Below the pieces are notes generated by a model. It made no database searches. It was not told the origin of the DNA and saw only the letters and a program-made list of their open reading frames with translations. A DNA stretch of 64,000 nt from Candidatus Poribacteria bacterium. GTDB lineage: Bacteria > Poribacteria > WGA-4E > WGA-3G. A program made the translations under genes and the position numbers. Positions within the stretch are counted from its first letter, which is position 1. Every line of letters begins with the position of its first letter. The DNA lies in the NCBI GenBank assembly GCA_022821965.1, contig JAJECN010000010.1:124001-188000 (forward strand). Direction: 5' to 3'. Below are positions 14,799 to 21,684 of the stretch, piece after piece.

Positions 14799-17135
14799 AT
14801 GCAACAGACGACAAATCGATATAGAACTATCATGAAAAAAGGAGTTAGCAGCCAATTTCATCTCCTGCTTGTCGGCTGCATATTGTTCCTTACCTTTGCT
14901 TCTGTAGGTTTCACCAATGAACTGCGTCTGGTTACTGGAGTAGAATTTCAACCGCTTGCGTCAGCAACACAGCGGCTTATTGAGGCGTTGGATTATCTCG
15001 GTTCACCTCTGTCTGAGGACGACCTTTCGGCAATTGAGAAAGCCTTGGTCTCTGAAGACCATCAACAAGCGGTTATTGACATTCAGAAAACGCTTGATGC
15101 CCACTGTTTGACCGGTGTCAATATCAATCCTGAGAGTCGTGTGAAGGTTATGGAAGGTCCCGTCAATAAGGAACTAATGCAGCAGGGTTGGCGCACATTT
15201 TTGGTAAAGGTTCACAACGAGGCTGCCGTGACAGCACCGCTGGCGGCAGAGAGCGCGAATTCAGCACCGCTGTATAAACGTTCGAGCGGAAGACCTGATC
15301 CGGAGATGACCGTCCCTAAAAGCGAGATTCCGCACCGATTTCTCGATATTGAAGTCTATACGAACCCACCCTTGAAAGCAAGTCTTTCCGGTTTAGCGTT
15401 GGAATATCGGATCGTTCAACTTTACAGTCGCGATGCAGGCAAACGGGAGGCGATGCTCGGTTTCAACATCGGTCAGGGAACACAGGACATCGGATTCCGA
15501 AGTGAAGTGCCGATCCTATTCGATTGTGTGCCAGCGGTGGGGGTAACCTTGGAGGTCTTGGACTTTGATGGAAAACCGACGACTGCAGCTTTTATCATTC
15601 GTGATAAACTGAATCGGGTATATCCGTCGCGCGGACGACGACTTGCACCGGATTTCTTCTTTCATAACCAAATCTATCGGCACAGTGGCGAATCCGTCCT
15701 CCTGCCGCCTGGCAACTATACTGTCGAATACACACGGGGACCGGAATATAAGATAAAAACACAAACCGTTACTGTCCCGAATGCCCGGACGCATCAAGAG
15801 ACCTTTCATCTGGAAAGATGGATCCATATCGCTGCGGAGGGCTGGCGTTCTGGCGATCATCATGTACACGCAGCCGGTTGCTCTCACTATGAAAGTCCGA
15901 CCGAGGGTGTTACACCGGAAGACATGATGCGGCACATTCTCGGAGAAGACCTCAATGTTGGGTGTGTGCTCTCGTGGGGACCCTGCTGGTATTTTCAGAA
16001 GCAGTTTTTTGACGGCAAGGTTCATGAACTCTCAACCGATGATTACGTAATGCGATACGATGTGGAGGTTTCAGGTTTCCCCTCTTCACACGCTGGACAT
16101 CTCTCATTACTGGGGTTGACTGAGGACGACTACAAGGGTGTTGAACGGATTGAGGAGTGGCCCAGTTGGGATCTCCCTGTCCTCCAGTGGGCGAAAGAGC
16201 AGGGCGCGGTGACAGGCTTCAGTCACAGCGGTTGGGGATTGAAAGTGGATGGCGACGAACTCCCCAATTACAACATGCCTCCTTTTGACGGTATCGGTGC
16301 GAACGAGTATATTGTAGATGTGGTTCATGACACTGTTGATTTCATCTCTACGGTGGACACACCTGCTGTTTGGGAACTGAATATCTGGTATCACACGCTG
16401 AATTGCGGTTTCCGCACGCGAATCAGTGGCGAAACGGATTTCCCTTGTATTTATGGAGAACGCGTCGGATTGGGGCGTATCTATGTGAAAATGCCTGCCG
16501 GTGCCCTTGACTTTGACGCATGGGTGGCAGGGTTGAAAGATGGTCGTTCTTATGTCGGAGATGGTAAAAGTCATCTATTAGACTTTACTGTCGGGGGCGT
16601 ACCCGTTGGAGAAAAGACAGCAACTGGAGAGCTTAGCCAGTTGGATTTGGAAGCACCCAGCACGGTAACCATCACGGCTCGCGTCGCTGCACGGCTTGGC
16701 GAAACGCCTAATCTTGAGATAAAGAATCGCGCTTTGGATCAGCAGCCGTATTGGGACGTTGAGCGTGCACGCATTGCGGAGAGCCAGAAGGTGCCTGTTG
16801 AACTCATTGTCAATGGTCAGGCGGTTGAAACACAGGAGATTGTCGCTGACGGTGAAATCGTACTCGTTCAATTTGATACACCTATTGACAGATCGAGTTG
16901 GGTCGCGCTCCGTATATTTCCATCGTCCCATACAAATCCGGTTTTTGTCATTGTAGATGGTAAACCGATTCGAGCAAGTCGCAGAAGTGCACAATGGTGC
17001 TTGGATGCCGTGGAGGTCTGCTGGAACGAAAAGGTTGATCGCATCCGGGAGGAGGAACGCGATGCTGCACGCAAAGCATACGACGTAGCATCGCAGACAT
17101 ATCAGAAAATTCTTGAGGAATCTGATGTAGATTGA
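14799..17135 (+). CDS. Secreted CehA/McbA-type PHP-domain metallohydrolase
   Basis: ATG 14799 with AGGAGG about 8 nt upstream. 778 residues with an N-terminal signal peptide (FHLLLVGCILFLTFASVGFTN). The first ~330 residues are beta-rich, including a region like a carboxypeptidase-regulatory fold (LLPPGNYTVEYTRGPEYK). The PHP metal-binding start is SGDHHVHAAGCSHYE at about residue 350; later metal-ligand candidates are VTGFSHSGWGLK and GETDFPCIYGERVG. The family includes CehA and McbA carbaryl esterases, so hydrolysis of an ester or phosphoester is likely, outside the cytoplasm. The C-terminal ~60 residues form a charged helix. It seems to be a single-gene unit. Confidence 0.78.
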   Translation: MQQTTNRYRTIMKKGVSSQFHLLLVGCILFLTFASVGFTNELRLVTGVEFQPLASATQRLIEALDYLGSPLSEDDLSAIEKALVSEDHQQAVIDIQKTLDAHCLTGVNINPESRVKVMEGPVNKELMQQGWRTFLVKVHNEAAVTAPLAAESANSAPLYKRSSGRPDPEMTVPKSEIPHRFLDIEVYTNPPLKASLSGLALEYRIVQLYSRDAGKREAMLGFNIGQGTQDIGFRSEVPILFDCVPAVGVTLEVLDFDGKPTTAAFIIRDKLNRVYPSRGRRLAPDFFFHNQIYRHSGESVLLPPGNYTVEYTRGPEYKIKTQTVTVPNARTHQETFHLERWIHIAAEGWRSGDHHVHAAGCSHYESPTEGVTPEDMMRHILGEDLNVGCVLSWGPCWYFQKQFFDGKVHELSTDDYVMRYDVEVSGFPSSHAGHLSLLGLTEDDYKGVERIEEWPSWDLPVLQWAKEQGAVTGFSHSGWGLKVDGDELPNYNMPPFDGIGANEYIVDVVHDTVDFISTVDTPAVWELNIWYHTLNCGFRTRISGETDFPCIYGERVGLGRIYVKMPAGALDFDAWVAGLKDGRSYVGDGKSHLLDFTVGGVPVGEKTATGELSQLDLEAPSTVTITARVAARLGETPNLEIKNRALDQQPYWDVERARIAESQKVPVELIVNGQAVETQEIVADGEIVLVQFDTPIDRSSWVALRIFPSSHTNPVFVIVDGKPIRASRRSAQWCLDAVEVCWNEKVDRIREEERDAARKAYDVASQTYQKILEESDVD

Positions 17136-17205
17136 AACTGAAGTCAGAACTGAAGTGTATGAGGTCTCTTGAGAAAAGCAACCATTTAACGTGGAGATGA
17201 ACTCG

Positions 17206-18132
17206 ATGCGATACGATAAAAACAGATTCAAAATATGGGCACTCCCTCACCCTATTCTCTTACACTGGGTACTGAACCCAGTAATAATGTTCCAAGAACT
17301 GATTTTCGGACAACGACTTCCCAAAGTCTCGTTGGTTGACAAAGAGAGTGATAAACCTTGGATGGAACGCTCTTACATTCCCTGTCCGCACTGTGAAACG
17401 CTGAATGACAGCCGTTTGTGGGCAACAAAAGGAAATGCCTTTGGACATTGGTTTGGCTTTGTTTGTCCAAGTTGCCATCAAATAATTCCTTGCCTATGGA
17501 ACATTTTTAGTCTCGCCGTATTGGCGATTACTTTCCCGCTGTGGTATTTCCCCGCACGGTTCTTCCACCAAAGATGGCTTGAGAAAGAAAAAGAGAGATT
17601 GGCGAAGGTCCTTGAACGTCCCCTGATCCAAGCAACGTCCATACTTTCGATAGGTTGGATAGGCATTTTCGCTTACGGTGTATCCTTCATGGTGATATGG
17701 GTGATTTGCGAGGTTTTGCGGAACGTTTGGAACGGAAGGGAATGGGATTTGAAAACGATGCTCGAAAGTTTGCCAATGGGGATGGTAGCTGGCTTTGCGA
17801 TCAGTTTATTCCTGAGCTGGATGGAGAAAGACAAAGAGAAAGAAAGATTGGCGAAGGTTCCTGAACGCCCTTTGATTCGGGCAATTCGGGCAAAGTCCAT
17901 AAATTGGTTTGAGTTAAGGTGGTTTTTTAGAGGCACTTTTTATTTTGGTGGATTCATGTGGGTAGTTTTCGGGGTGTGGGACGTTTGGACGGGAAGAGAA
18001 TCGGGTTTGATGTTTGATGGGTTGCCAGTTTGTTTGTTATTAGGCTTTATATGGGGAGCATTCATGCAAGTTTTGGTGAATCTATTGAATCTATTGGATG
18101 AATCTAAAAGGAGGAAAGGCAGAAAGACCTGA
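17206..18132 (+). CDS. Zinc-ribbon multi-pass membrane protein, paralog 1 (with duplicated C-terminal module)
   Basis: The start is set by comparison of three tandem paralogs: each has GGAG, about 9 nt, then ATG encoding M-R/Q-Y-D-K-N-R-F. 308 residues. Two cysteine pairs (PCPHC and VCPSCH) form a likely zinc ribbon on the soluble N-terminal part, followed by the membrane segment IFSLAVLAITFPLWYFPARFF. The C-terminal module (R-L-A-K-V-x-E-R-P-L-I, then two hydrophobic helices) occurs twice in tandem here, 83 residues apart, but only once in the other two paralogs. Family unknown to me. Related DNA flanks both sides, so the array arose by segmental duplication. Confidence 0.75.
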   Translation: MRYDKNRFKIWALPHPILLHWVLNPVIMFQELIFGQRLPKVSLVDKESDKPWMERSYIPCPHCETLNDSRLWATKGNAFGHWFGFVCPSCHQIIPCLWNIFSLAVLAITFPLWYFPARFFHQRWLEKEKERLAKVLERPLIQATSILSIGWIGIFAYGVSFMVIWVICEVLRNVWNGREWDLKTMLESLPMGMVAGFAISLFLSWMEKDKEKERLAKVPERPLIRAIRAKSINWFELRWFFRGTFYFGGFMWVVFGVWDVWTGRESGLMFDGLPVCLLLGFIWGAFMQVLVNLLNLLDESKRRKGRKT

Positions 18133-18239
18133 ATCTGACTGAGGAAGCCATTGGGGTATACAATCAAGTATTTTATGATTGACTATAATGTATGAAGTCT
18201 CTTAAAGAAGGGCAACCGTTTGGTACGGAGGCGAATCCG

Positions 18240-18899
18240 ATGCAATATGACAAAAACAGATTTGAAATATGGGCCGTACCTCACCCCCTTGTCTTATTCT
18301 ATGTACTGAACCCGCTAATAGTGTTCAACGAACTGATTCTCGGACAACGACTTCCCAAAGTCACATTGATTGATGAAAAGAGTGATAGACCCTTTTTTGA
18401 ACGTTGTTACATCCCCTGTCCACACTGTGAAACGCTGAATGACAACCGTTTGTGGGCAAAATGGAATGGTTTTGGGCATTGGTTTGGCATTGTTTGTCCA
18501 AGTTGCCATCAAATAATCCCGTGTCTATGGAACATTTTTAGTCTCGCCGTATTGGCGATTACTTTCCCGTTGTGGTATTTCCCCGCACGGTTCTTCCGTC
18601 GAAGATGGCTTGAGATAGAAAAAAAGAGATTGGCGAGTGTTCTTGAAGGTCCCTTGACTCAAGCAGGATACATAAATTGGTTTTTAAGAGGTGTCTTCTT
18701 TTTGGGTGGACTTGTGTGGGTGATCTTCGAGATTATTCCACAGGTATGGAAGGTTTTGAATGGCGGAGAATGGGATTGGATAATGATGTTTATTGCGTTA
18801 CCAATTTGGTTGATACCAGGCTTTGGGTGTAGCTTATTATGGATGCATCGTTGGCTGAATCGAAAAGGGAAAAAGGCGGACGGACATGAATCTGATTAA
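18240..18899 (+). CDS. Zinc-ribbon multi-pass membrane protein, paralog 2
   Basis: ATG 18240 preceded by GGAGGCGAATCCG. 219 residues, near-identical in the core to the copies on either side (PHP-L-V-L-F-Y-V-L-N-P, IPCPHCETLND, FGIVCPSCHQIIPCLWNIFSLAVLAITFPLWYFPARFF). It has one C-terminal module with two predicted helices (FLRGVFFLGGLVWVIFEII and FIALPIWLIPGFGCSLLW). After the stop lies a fragment of the downstream dioxygenase gene, showing that the duplicated unit extended past this gene. Function unknown; a membrane-anchored zinc-ribbon protein is as far as the sequence goes. Confidence 0.75.
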   Translation: MQYDKNRFEIWAVPHPLVLFYVLNPLIVFNELILGQRLPKVTLIDEKSDRPFFERCYIPCPHCETLNDNRLWAKWNGFGHWFGIVCPSCHQIIPCLWNIFSLAVLAITFPLWYFPARFFRRRWLEIEKKRLASVLEGPLTQAGYINWFLRGVFFLGGLVWVIFEIIPQVWKVLNGGEWDWIMMFIALPIWLIPGFGCSLLWMHRWLNRKGKKADGHESD

Positions 18900-18923
18900 A
18901 AATCCACTATAAGGAGCCGTGTT

Positions 18924-18971
18924 ATGAAACTTATGCCTCAAGAGGTTGAACAATTCAGTAGGTTGGGTTGA
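18924..18971 (+). pseudogene. 5' fragment of a phytanoyl-CoA dioxygenase gene
   Basis: CACTATAAGGAG...ATGAAACTTATGCCTCAAGAG repeats the ribosome site and first codons of the intact gene at 19963. After about 11 shared codons (MKLMPQE-x-EQF) the reading enters the palindromic element at 18958 and stops at TGA 18969-18971. It is the 3' end of a duplicated segment, cut off by the element. Confidence 0.8.
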
Positions 18972-19193
18972 ACGGATGTCCCCAAAACCTGAAAAACAAT
19001 CGAAAAATCAATCCACTCCGTAGATGTTACGTCAAAAAAAACCGAGTGAAACCCAACATTTTTGTGGCTCCTGAGACGCTGATGGTATGAAGTTGGGTTT
19101 CACTGCGTTCTTGATCCCATACGATGACAGGCTGGATTTGGGAGGTATTTGGGGAACACATCAGTCTTTTGAGTTCCGTTCAACCCAACCTAC
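18958..19193. mobile_element. 236-bp nested palindrome, MITE-like
   Basis: The ends are perfect 19-bp inverted repeats, GTAGGTTGGGTTGAACGGA (18958-18976) and its complement (19175-19193). Just inside, TGTCCCCAAA and TTTGGGGAACA continue the symmetry. A second perfect 13-bp pair lies at 19045-19057 (AGTGAAACCCAAC) and 19092-19104. There is no ORF of note, and no target duplication is evident. The outer motif TAGGTTGGGTTGA recurs at 42058-42070. A non-autonomous transposable element or a dispersed palindromic repeat is the likely explanation. It fills most of the 347-bp space between paralogs 2 and 3. Confidence 0.65.
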
Positions 19194-19246
19194 GGGACTG
19201 AGGAGTTTCTTAAGAAAAGCAATCATTTGACCTGGAGATGAACCCG

Positions 19247-19903
19247 ATGCAATATGACAAAAATAGATTCAAAATATGGGCACTCCCTCACCCTATTCTC
19301 TTACACTGGGTACTGAACCCAGGAGTAATGGTTGGTGAACTGATTTTCGGGGTACGAGCCGCCAAAGTCACCTTGATTGACAAAAAGAGTGATAAACCTT
19401 TGTTGGAACGTTCTTACATTCCGTGTCCGCACTGTGAAACGCTTAATGATGCCCGTTTATGGGCAAAAGGAAGGGCTTTTGGGAATTGGTTTGGCTTTGT
19501 TTGTCCAAGTTGCCATGAAATAATTCCGTGTCTATGGAACATTTTTAGTCTCGGCATATTGGCGATTACTTTCCCGTTGTGGTATTTCCCCGCACGGTTC
19601 TTCCGCCGAAGATGGCTTGAGAATGAAAAAAAGAGATTGGCGAGTGTTCTTAAACATCCCTTGATTCAAGCAGGAGACATAAATTGGCTTTTAAGAGGCA
19701 CCTTCTTTTTCGGTGGATTCATGTGGGGGATTATGGGGGTTATTCCGCAGGTCTGGGAGGTTTTGAATGGAGGGGAATGGGATTGGATAATGATGTTTAT
19801 TGCGTTGCCAATTTGGTTGGTAACAGGATTTATGTGGGGCTTATTCATGCGTTTTTTCATGAATCGAAAGGGAGAAAAGACAGACAAACATGAATCTGAA
19901 TGA
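19247..19903 (+). CDS. Zinc-ribbon multi-pass membrane protein, paralog 3
   Basis: ATG 19247 after GGAGATGAACCCG. 218 residues, closest in layout to paralog 2: PHPILLHWVLNPGVMV, IPCPHCETLNDARLW, FVCPSCHEIIPCLWNIFSLGILAITFPLWYFPARFF, then one C-terminal module with FFGGFMWGIMGVIPQVW and ALPIWLVTGFMWGLFM. The ~45 bp before the start match those before paralog 1. The following DNA leads into the intact dioxygenase gene 59 bp away; this is probably the ancestral arrangement that was duplicated. The role is unknown. Confidence 0.75.
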   Translation: MQYDKNRFKIWALPHPILLHWVLNPGVMVGELIFGVRAAKVTLIDKKSDKPLLERSYIPCPHCETLNDARLWAKGRAFGNWFGFVCPSCHEIIPCLWNIFSLGILAITFPLWYFPARFFRRRWLENEKKRLASVLKHPLIQAGDINWLLRGTFFFGGFMWGIMGVIPQVWEVLNGGEWDWIMMFIALPIWLVTGFMWGLFMRFFMNRKGEKTDKHESE

Positions 19904-19962
19904 AGAAACCGTTAGGTCTACAATTAGGTATTTTTATAATCTACTATAAGGAGCAATGTGTT

Positions 19963-20730
19963 ATGAAACTTATGCCTCAAGAGATCGAGCAATTCAAGCG
20001 CGTAGGCTATCTCAAAATCGAAGGACGCGTCATTGATGACGAGCATCTTACCGTGCTACGCGAACATTACGATGCCCAATTTTCACAGAGACGCGGCACA
20101 ATCGGTGAAGGATTGCGTAACCTTGCAGTCGTCGGGGAATCGGAGAGCGATGAAGACGCTGATCGTGAAGAAGAGATGTTACAGATTATGGAGATGTGGC
20201 GTTTGGATGAGGAATATCGGAAGTTACTCTACCACGAACCGCTGTTAGATATCGTCGAGAGTTTAATTGGATCCGATATCCAGTTATTTCACGATCAGGC
20301 ACTCTACAAACCCGCCTATCACGGCGGTGAAGTGTATTGGCACCAAGATAATGCATATTGGCAATGCGTCCCGCCCAATCTTGTGAGTATCTGGTTAGCA
20401 CTCGATGATGCCGACGAAGAGAACGGGTGTATGAACGTTATCCCCGGCAGTTATTTGGAAGGATTGGCGGCGCACGGACGTGCTGAGTCAGAGAAAGGTA
20501 AATTGCCAGCGTTGTTGGAGGTGGATGCTGATGTGGATCGTGCTGTACCCGTGCCAGTTAAAGCCGGATGCGTAATGGTACATCACTGTATGACACTCCA
20601 CCAAACGAATCCGAACCGCTCACCCCGAGACCGTCGGGCATTGGCTCTCCATTACATGCCATCCGGTACGCGGAATCGCGATGGTGAGGTAATGAAAGAC
20701 AATCCGCTGCTCCGCGGTAAGTTAGTGTGA
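19963..20730 (+). CDS. Phytanoyl-CoA dioxygenase (PhyH) family Fe(II)/2-oxoglutarate oxygenase
   Basis: ATG 19963 with AAGGAG at 19948-19953; upstream codons in frame lack a ribosome site. 255 residues, normal for the family. The iron site is H-x-D in VYWHQDNAYW, and the distal histidine is in MVHHCMTLHQTNPNRSPRDRRALALHY, where the downstream arginines would bind 2-oxoglutarate. LALDDADEENGCMNVIPGSY is the typical core between them. Members hydroxylate diverse small molecules, not only phytanoyl-CoA, and are abundant in sponge- and algae-associated bacteria. A truncated copy of its 5' end lies at 18924. It is convergent with the LamG gene. Confidence 0.88.
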   Translation: MKLMPQEIEQFKRVGYLKIEGRVIDDEHLTVLREHYDAQFSQRRGTIGEGLRNLAVVGESESDEDADREEEMLQIMEMWRLDEEYRKLLYHEPLLDIVESLIGSDIQLFHDQALYKPAYHGGEVYWHQDNAYWQCVPPNLVSIWLALDDADEENGCMNVIPGSYLEGLAAHGRAESEKGKLPALLEVDADVDRAVPVPVKAGCVMVHHCMTLHQTNPNRSPRDRRALALHYMPSGTRNRDGEVMKDNPLLRGKLV

Positions 20731-20886: not shown

Positions 20887-21684
20887 TCAATCGGCTTTAA
20901 TATCAGCCCAGGTCGTTGTGAGTTTACCTGAAGGTTCAATATCAGCTGCTTTTTCTAACCCATCATTCATGAGGGTTTCAAGATCATCATCGTCCAACGC
21001 AACATTGAAGACGGCGACGTCGTCAACAATTCCAGCGAAAAACTGTCCCCATTGACCATGTTGTCCAGTGGCGAGATAGATACCTATTAAAAGGGGTTTA
21101 TCAGTTAACGGATTCCTTCCTAAGTTTGGCGTCGTTATACCCTCGCCAATCTGATCAGCGTCGATATATACACCAAATTCTTCGCCATCCCAGGTAACGG
21201 CAACATGATGCCAATCTGTATCCGGTTTCCAAGGTGCATCTATAAAGTGAAGCGTACCGCCTGGATCATGCGTGTGATGTCGGATTCTACCCGCATCCCA
21301 CCAAAATCCAGGAGCCCAGTCATCTTTGGTCACAACACCCATGCCACCCCCGGGCGGTTTATCTAATTTGAACCAAAGCGCAATCGTGTGTTCGCCTCCG
21401 ACATTTAAAGAATCGTCGTGAGCAATTTCTACGTAAGAATCCGAACCGTCAAGGTGTAAACCCTTACCAAATTTGCCATTAACCCATTTTGCACCACCCT
21501 CAACCGTGCCATCATTACCTGTTCCAGAGGAATCTTCGACTTTGTTACCATTCCCCTCATCAAAGAGCCACATGCCGACGCAATCTCCAAAGTCAATTGC
21601 CGCAGAGCTGGTCCCTACAAACATCAGACTCATAACCATTAAACTGACACATAGCAGTTTTAACCTTGTAACTGTAGTTTGCAT
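20887..21684 (-). CDS. Secreted LamG/concanavalin A-like protein with conserved C-terminal tail
   Basis: Start ATG (21682-21684) preceded by GGGAGGA on the minus strand. 265 residues: a signal peptide (LLCVSLMVMSLMFVGTSSA), then one LamG-type jelly roll. Typical marks are CVGMWLFDEGNGNKVEDSSGTGNDGTVEG, HTIALWFKLDKP, WHHVAVTWDGEEFGVYIDADQIG and the final FAGIVDDVAVFNVALDDDDL. The protein ends GKLTTTWADIKAD, a tail shared with the three other LamG proteins in this window. Such domains bind sugars or proteins at the cell surface. No enzyme active site is visible. The gene stands alone on the minus strand. Confidence 0.82.
   Translation of the reverse strand: MQTTVTRLKLLCVSLMVMSLMFVGTSSAAIDFGDCVGMWLFDEGNGNKVEDSSGTGNDGTVEGGAKWVNGKFGKGLHLDGSDSYVEIAHDDSLNVGGEHTIALWFKLDKPPGGGMGVVTKDDWAPGFWWDAGRIRHHTHDPGGTLHFIDAPWKPDTDWHHVAVTWDGEEFGVYIDADQIGEGITTPNLGRNPLTDKPLLIGIYLATGQHGQWGQFFAGIVDDVAVFNVALDDDDLETLMNDGLEKAADIEPSGKLTTTWADIKAD

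Follow-up and report, generated by a model that had tools for sequence, protein, structure and literature searches.

The window analysed here is a 64,000-nucleotide stretch of a Candidatus Poribacteria bacterium (GenBank assembly GCA_022821965.1, contig JAJECN010000010.1, positions 124,001 to 188,000 of the forward strand), and it lies in contig 47 of a 5.69 Mb source genome. It carries three adjacent, co-directional genes, here called copies A, B and C, which encode paralogous membrane proteins with a zinc-ribbon motif. These genes very probably form an array of one to three paralogues at a fixed site, in which copies are lost, gained and exchanged by recombination and pieces of the flanking genes are left in the spacers. 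The best overall explanation, which joins this history to a four-segment membrane topology and a protective role for the protein, is offered tentatively; a housekeeping role in the cell envelope is about as likely as a protective one.

Within the genus of the source genome the array occupies a single junction. In all 22 family-bearing genus genomes (the source included), a copy or a fragment was found between a CehA/McbA-like metallohydrolase gene, used as the upstream anchor, and a PhyH-family dioxygenase gene, used as the downstream anchor. These anchors were detected in 35 and 36 of the 38 genus genomes, respectively. The occupied site is contained on one contig in 18 genomes, and neither strand nor position varies among the contiguous occupied loci read. 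It holds three copies in the source genome, G032 and G010; two in G005, G036, G018, G017, G020, G013, G003 and G029 (one of the G029 pair being broken); and one in G008, G001, G006, G027, G002, G025 and G019. The site is split by contig ends in G004, G014, G015 and G024. In a further 14 genomes the site is intact but empty, with the anchors a short distance apart. G007 and G012 are without the anchors. Measured from the last matched codon, the gap was 27-41 bp at nine of 15 empty junctions (one in each of these 14 genomes, and an additional version in G024), 113-115 bp at four, 193 bp at one and 233 bp at one. Copy number at this site thus ranges from 0 to 3 among the genus genomes that have it, which answers a check proposed in the first-pass annotation, a reading of the window's letters that had reported a tandem triplicate. 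Extra copies away from the site are present in G010, G020, G004 and G029.

To place occupancy on a phylogeny, a tree of the upstream anchor was built from 35 rows, without G016 (849 bases) and G004 (upstream anchor not found). The 21 occupied and 14 empty rows are separated by one branch (98/97), as compared to ∼11 changes needed when the labels are shuffled. Because a single branch divides the rows, a single gain or a single loss is the simplest history, with the site having been occupied once or emptied once within the genus. Three individual genomes show other variation at the site. The G024 bin contains both an occupied and an empty version (contigs 21/111 and 125), which suggests that it comprises two strains or species. 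In G030 (contig 1, 18698-20986) the CehA/McbA-like gene is fragmented, in different frames and with stops, and the single copy of G001 (contig 32, 4412-6748) has its C-terminal tail repeated in frame and is separated from the PhyH gene by ∼1.7 kb of other DNA.

The spacers contain remnants of the flanking genes. Between B and C, the leader of the PhyH gene and its first 11-12 codons are followed by an inverted-repeat element and then by the leader of C. The same PhyH-start scar, cut at the same base, was found in 10 spacers from nine of the 22 family-bearing genomes (twice in G010 and once each in the source genome, G020, G005, G017, G024, G029, G036 and G014), and was absent from all 15 empty junctions and all seven contiguous single-copy sites. 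Up to five mismatches were tolerated in this search, and contigs broken at the site (G004, G014, G015 and G024) may conceal scars or copies. One spacer of G032 contains the 3' end of the upstream anchor gene. The inverted-repeat element has 13 matches in the source genome, four of which (itself included) are full-length with 71-100% identity, and some spacers carry internally deleted or altered versions of it. The traces of recombination comprise the 10 PhyH-start scars, the one upstream-anchor 3'-end scar and the mosaic best matches described below. Some copies have also been broken, those of G029 and G014 by frameshifts and that of G047 by one stop in a protein search. Because a scar cut at the same base recurs in 10 spacers of nine genomes, the array is old and turning over. 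We read this pattern as an ancestral duplication in which the beginning of the PhyH gene was copied along, with later losses and gains of copies.

The first-pass annotation had attributed the three genes to recent local amplification, which is contradicted by comparison with other genomes. DNA repeats D1/D2 align A, B and C in register at 70-88% identity, and the proteins are 73% (C and B) and 69% (C and A, over the shared part) identical. In a tree of the first 150 residues, which skipped two copies without an N-terminus, B groups with the G013 copy (93% identity over 150 columns) and also with G032 and G017. A and C are placed elsewhere, though not with strong support, and the three do not form one group. 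When the copies were divided into 24-codon segments, the best DNA match came from the copy's own genome in 1-8 of 25 copies per segment (24 copies in the last segment), with most best matches in other genomes. Since the copies do not group and their segments mostly match other genomes best, A, B and C are old lineages maintained together. A recent triplication was rejected on the basis of the trees and the empty-site comparison. There are small signs of exchange among the window copies: A and C are 94% alike across their first 24 codons, synonymous difference (pS) in the second membrane segment is 0.05-0.17 among the window copies versus a between-genome median of 0.38, and three of the four parts of the gene show lower pS within genomes than between them. 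Strong within-genome homogenisation by gene conversion was rejected as the main process, given that these signs are weak and own-genome best matches are few.

The doubling of the C-terminal two-helix module in copy A, reported in the first-pass annotation as an 83-residue tandem repeat, is real, with repeat D3 located at 17581 and 17830 (spacing of 249 nt, or 83 codons), but it is not recent. Among 32 copies whose start is complete, 17 have two modules. In a module tree, the first modules of these 17 copies all fall in one clade (100/98) and their second modules in another (80/86), placed among the modules of the short forms; G036_8612, in which the anchor pattern was not found, and G001, which has an extended, different tail, were excluded. 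One short G032 copy bears a second-type module, as if the first had been lost. The doubling arose once, before the studied genomes diverged, and is not special to copy A. No long form was seen outside the genus among the loci read, which are a subset.

The protein is not uniformly constrained. For 32 copies from 18 genomes (open reading frames (ORFs) with the shared start pattern and at least 180 aa), the mean ratio of nonsynonymous to synonymous differences (pN/pS) between genomes was 0.42 for the N-terminus, 0.18 for the ribbon and 0.20 for segment 2 with the basic stretch that follows it (479 pairs), and 0.68 for the hairpin of the short forms (75 pairs). The ribbon and segment 2 are under purifying selection, which supports maintenance of the core, and the C-terminal hairpin is relaxed. 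The first-pass annotation had described a highly conserved membrane segment; the selection for dose or variation that it also suggested is conjectural. Besides weak ones, a hydrophobicity scan on the octanol scale yields four hydrophobic segments in every one of the 11 A4 proteins, and copy A has six. Lysine and arginine residues are concentrated in two clusters, one following segment 2 and one at the C-terminus; the loop between segments 3 and 4 of copy C has none. Under the positive-inside rule, basic residues mark the cytoplasmic side of a membrane, so that this clustering would place both termini inside and the ribbon outside the cytoplasm. The short copy is thus probably an inner-membrane protein of four segments with its ribbon on the extracytoplasmic segment 1-2 loop. 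The strongly basic stretch after segment 2 would lie inside, segments 3 and 4 would form a more variable hairpin, and the second hairpin of the long form, together with its basic linker, would preserve the parity of the topology.

An AlphaFold2 model of copy C, generated from a 36-row alignment (mean predicted local distance difference test (pLDDT) score of 82.5), contains a kinked helix (residues 16-33), the ribbon (∼57-96), a long helix (99-136) and two hairpin helices (147-173 and 180-205). The model of the long form was poor (mean pLDDT 51.8). A Foldseek search with the copy C model yielded nothing at E 0.001 or better in the PDB or BFVD, and in the VIA fold comparison the best match (Z 5.8) came with rows spanning residues 143-214 alone, corresponding to the helical hairpin, with the ribbon domain barely covered.

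This is a zinc-ribbon membrane family without a model in the libraries searched, and it remains nameless, as it was in the first-pass annotation. No Pfam or NCBIfam family scored above its cut-off for A, B, C or their relatives (Pfam was scanned at E up to 1 for A, B and C and up to 0.1 for relatives). PADLOC models gave 0 matches to five proteins at E up to 1, PHROGs gave weak matches alone (E 0.015 or worse), a PDB sequence search gave no match, and no description of the family was found in the open-access literature. Small zinc ribbons in Pfam, including the SprT-like ribbon, lunapark Zn_ribbon_10 and the ribbon part of GpA_ATPase, also have two CxxC pairs with similar spacing, but all scores fell under the family cut-offs (best ribbon-type scores of ∼11-18 bits versus curated cut-offs of ∼22-30), a generic ribbon resemblance alone. 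All three window copies are intact ORFs with the CPHC and CPSC pairs described from the sequence (CPxC...CPxC), and the two CxxC pairs are kept in alignments A1, A2 and A4; metal binding is predicted. The four ribbon cysteines, whose possible loss in relatives had been raised, and a fifth (C95 of copy C) are invariant in 11 aligned relatives that include proteins from Parashewanella, a Bacteroidetes metagenome-assembled genome (MAG) and Roseivirga, and again in a second 11-protein set that includes four more distant homologues. The fifth cysteine lies within an IPC motif, and several tryptophan, proline and glycine residues are likewise invariant across phyla (Poribacteria, Parashewanella, the Bacteroidetes MAG, Roseivirga and others). 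The Roseivirga protein (L064, 3527-4690) is seemingly fused to an N-terminal hydrophobic domain, with an internal start possible.

Among 193 relatives searched, 29 contain the family, of which 22 belong to the genus of the source genome (itself included), six to genus g3 and one to g4. This corresponds to 22 of 38 genomes of the genus and 29 of 84 of the phylum. The genome_contigs collection yielded 26 loci, 22 of them from Poribacteria and the rest from Parashewanella hymeniacidonis, the Bacteroidetes MAG, a Roseivirga MAG and an unconfirmed Nitrospirota stretch (L067), which is a 26-residue match from a genome in which a search gave no family member. The family is rare outside Poribacteria, with members in three of 295 genomes from the class of the Bacteroidetes genome (one being a remnant with stops), three of 295 from the order of Parashewanella, and two of 395 and one of 398 in phylum samples; these counts include the centre genomes, and the samples overlap in part. 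Copy C was unmatched in plasmid and phage collections and alignment A1 was unmatched in viral contigs, and a phage or plasmid origin was rejected for lack of matches there. In the non-Poribacteria loci read, no neighbour genes are common across phyla. The Parashewanella gene (L062, 3283-5375) lies among small genes (DUF7674, an L7/L12-like membrane protein and two unnamed), and this cluster is flanked by conjugation-type and relaxase-like genes, as named from their translations, a setting that fits a family gene carried as cargo. No article on DUF7674 was found in the open-access literature.

The patchy presence, variable copy number, variable hairpin and cargo-like setting of these genes give them a likeness to membrane immunity genes. 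By analogy, the family may encode a protective, immunity- or exclusion-like, stand-alone membrane protein, a role that we consider possible but doubtful. The proposed mechanism is the weakest step of the overall explanation: the protein would act alone as a protective membrane protein. The conserved ribbon core would serve as a scaffold, and the variable hairpin would contact the threat, which would act on the membrane and vary (a toxin from a competitor or an element entering the cell, for example), in an arrangement comparable to strings of TsaI-type membrane immunity proteins. A fuller proposal is unlikely as a whole: these proteins would be a new membrane immunity or exclusion family with an extracytoplasmic conserved zinc-ribbon core, and their specificity would reside in swappable hairpins, of which each protein bears one or two. 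Sponge symbionts would maintain the genes as a small, variable array at a single chromosomal site, with occasional transfer to other bacteria.

Known tandem immunity arrays resemble this one in part. Two papers describe TsaI/DUF443 proteins of the Staphylococcus type VII secretion system as encoded by strings of non-identical tandem multi-pass membrane-protein genes, with several per genome (PMC7456083, PMC9484751). The proteins described here differ in having a zinc ribbon, in occurring in a different phylum and in lacking a recognised toxin gene alongside. TsaI/DUF443 proteins have five membrane segments with an N-out/C-in orientation, whereas hydrophobicity and charge alone point here to four (six in the long form) with N-in/C-in. 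DUF443 was absent from the Pfam matches of A, B, C and relatives at the E values given above, so that the sequence test for that family failed. In the EsaG and TipC immunity arrays, as described in PMC9484751, copies expand and vanish via recombination between tandem paralogues; here the spacers hold flanking-gene scars and segment similarity is mostly to other genomes.

Several observations weigh against a protective role and the overall explanation built on it. No toxin, secretion-system or defence gene was recognised beside the copies in the loci read, in addition to the absence of PADLOC matches. The hairpin pN/pS of 0.68, being below 1, reflects relaxed constraint and not positive selection, and the ribbon core is the most conserved part, as expected for a housekeeping protein. 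The topology is drawn from hydrophobicity and charge alone, and an extracytoplasmic ribbon would be unusual. The anchor gene used for the tree is linked to the site, and recombination of the whole segment might account in part for the apparent single gain or loss. Finally, TsaI paralogues show little recombination according to PMC9484751, and array recombination is therefore not a signature of immunity.

The alternative that survives best is a housekeeping envelope protein, acting in metal handling, redox or membrane-protein quality control, with extra copies adjusting dose; it is a serious contender, if still short of an even chance. In its favor are the strong constraint that purifying selection places on the ribbon and segment 2, five cysteines and nearby tryptophan, proline and glycine residues that are invariant across phyla, and the intactness of most copies. 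However, absence from 16 of 38 genus genomes and great rarity elsewhere (the two of 395 and one of 398 genomes above) indicate that the protein is not essential, and a constant metabolic neighbour is lacking in the loci read. A second, less probable alternative is mostly passive turnover of a minor-use gene, in which short spacers and inverted-repeat elements promote recombination and the number and variety of copies are unselected. While the common breakpoint of the scars, the inverted-repeat element at that breakpoint, the deleted spacers, the scar-free single-copy genomes and the existence of broken copies are consistent with such turnover, nearly all copies are open and constrained (core pN/pS ∼0.2), and old paralogues have been retained side by side. 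A pathway shared with the PhyH or CehA/McbA-like neighbours is very improbable and was rejected as the main reading owing to the empty sites: strand and site are constant, and the G047 copy, from another genus, also adjoins a PhyH gene whose start is very similar, but in 14 genus genomes the anchors lie side by side with no family member between them, and relatives in other genera and phyla mostly have unrelated neighbours.

Table 1. Features of the array and its flanks, in window coordinates
Feature	Coordinates	Strand	Remarks
Copy A, long form, 308 aa	17206..18132	+	Membrane segment 1, zinc ribbon, membrane segment 2, two tandem hairpins (predicted)
Copy B, short form, 219 aa	18240..18899	+	Orthologue of the PhyH-adjacent copy in G013, G032 and G017
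Copy C, short form, 218 aa	19247..19903	+	Closest full-length relative is the G019 single copy, 82%
Scar: PhyH-gene leader and first 11-12 codons, cut at one base	18900..18957	+	Behind copy B
Inverted-repeat element (resembling a miniature inverted-repeat transposable element), ∼236 bp	18958..19193	.	Adjoins the scar directly; dispersed in source genome
Upstream anchor, CehA/McbA-family metallohydrolase gene, 778 aa	14799..17135	+	NF038032, 293.8 bits
Downstream anchor, PhyH-family dioxygenase gene, 255 aa	19963..20730	+	PF05721

The three genes in Table 1 are the only family members found in the source genome, in which a genome search returned four matched stretches, two of them within A. A GGAG motif lies ∼8-9 nt upstream of the common start in the leaders of all three, in agreement with the shared ribosome-site context reported earlier. 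An Rfam scan of 16900-20200 gave no match, and counts of promoter-like and terminator-like sites were about equal to those in shuffled sequence. Downstream, the region is adjoined by a minus-strand ORF of 265 aa (20887-21684), which we take by eye to resemble a LamG/concanavalin-type secreted protein. The PhyH gene has at least 60 loose candidate relatives per genome in a first-pass search. Published work reports that PhyH genes are highly abundant in Poribacteria (PMC3909097) and that a Poribacteria member of the PhyH family complemented in a 2'-O-methylcytidine demethylase screen (PMC12709175).

Despite lacking a library model, this family is kept under clear constraint in uncultured sponge symbionts. 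The junction offers a tractable natural experiment, since sister genomes differ there in copy number (0, 1, 2 or 3) and scars record how copies came and went. Should the protective role prove false, an unnamed membrane protein family of simple architecture would still be in hand; if it is true, these genes would point toward unseen antagonism within sponges.

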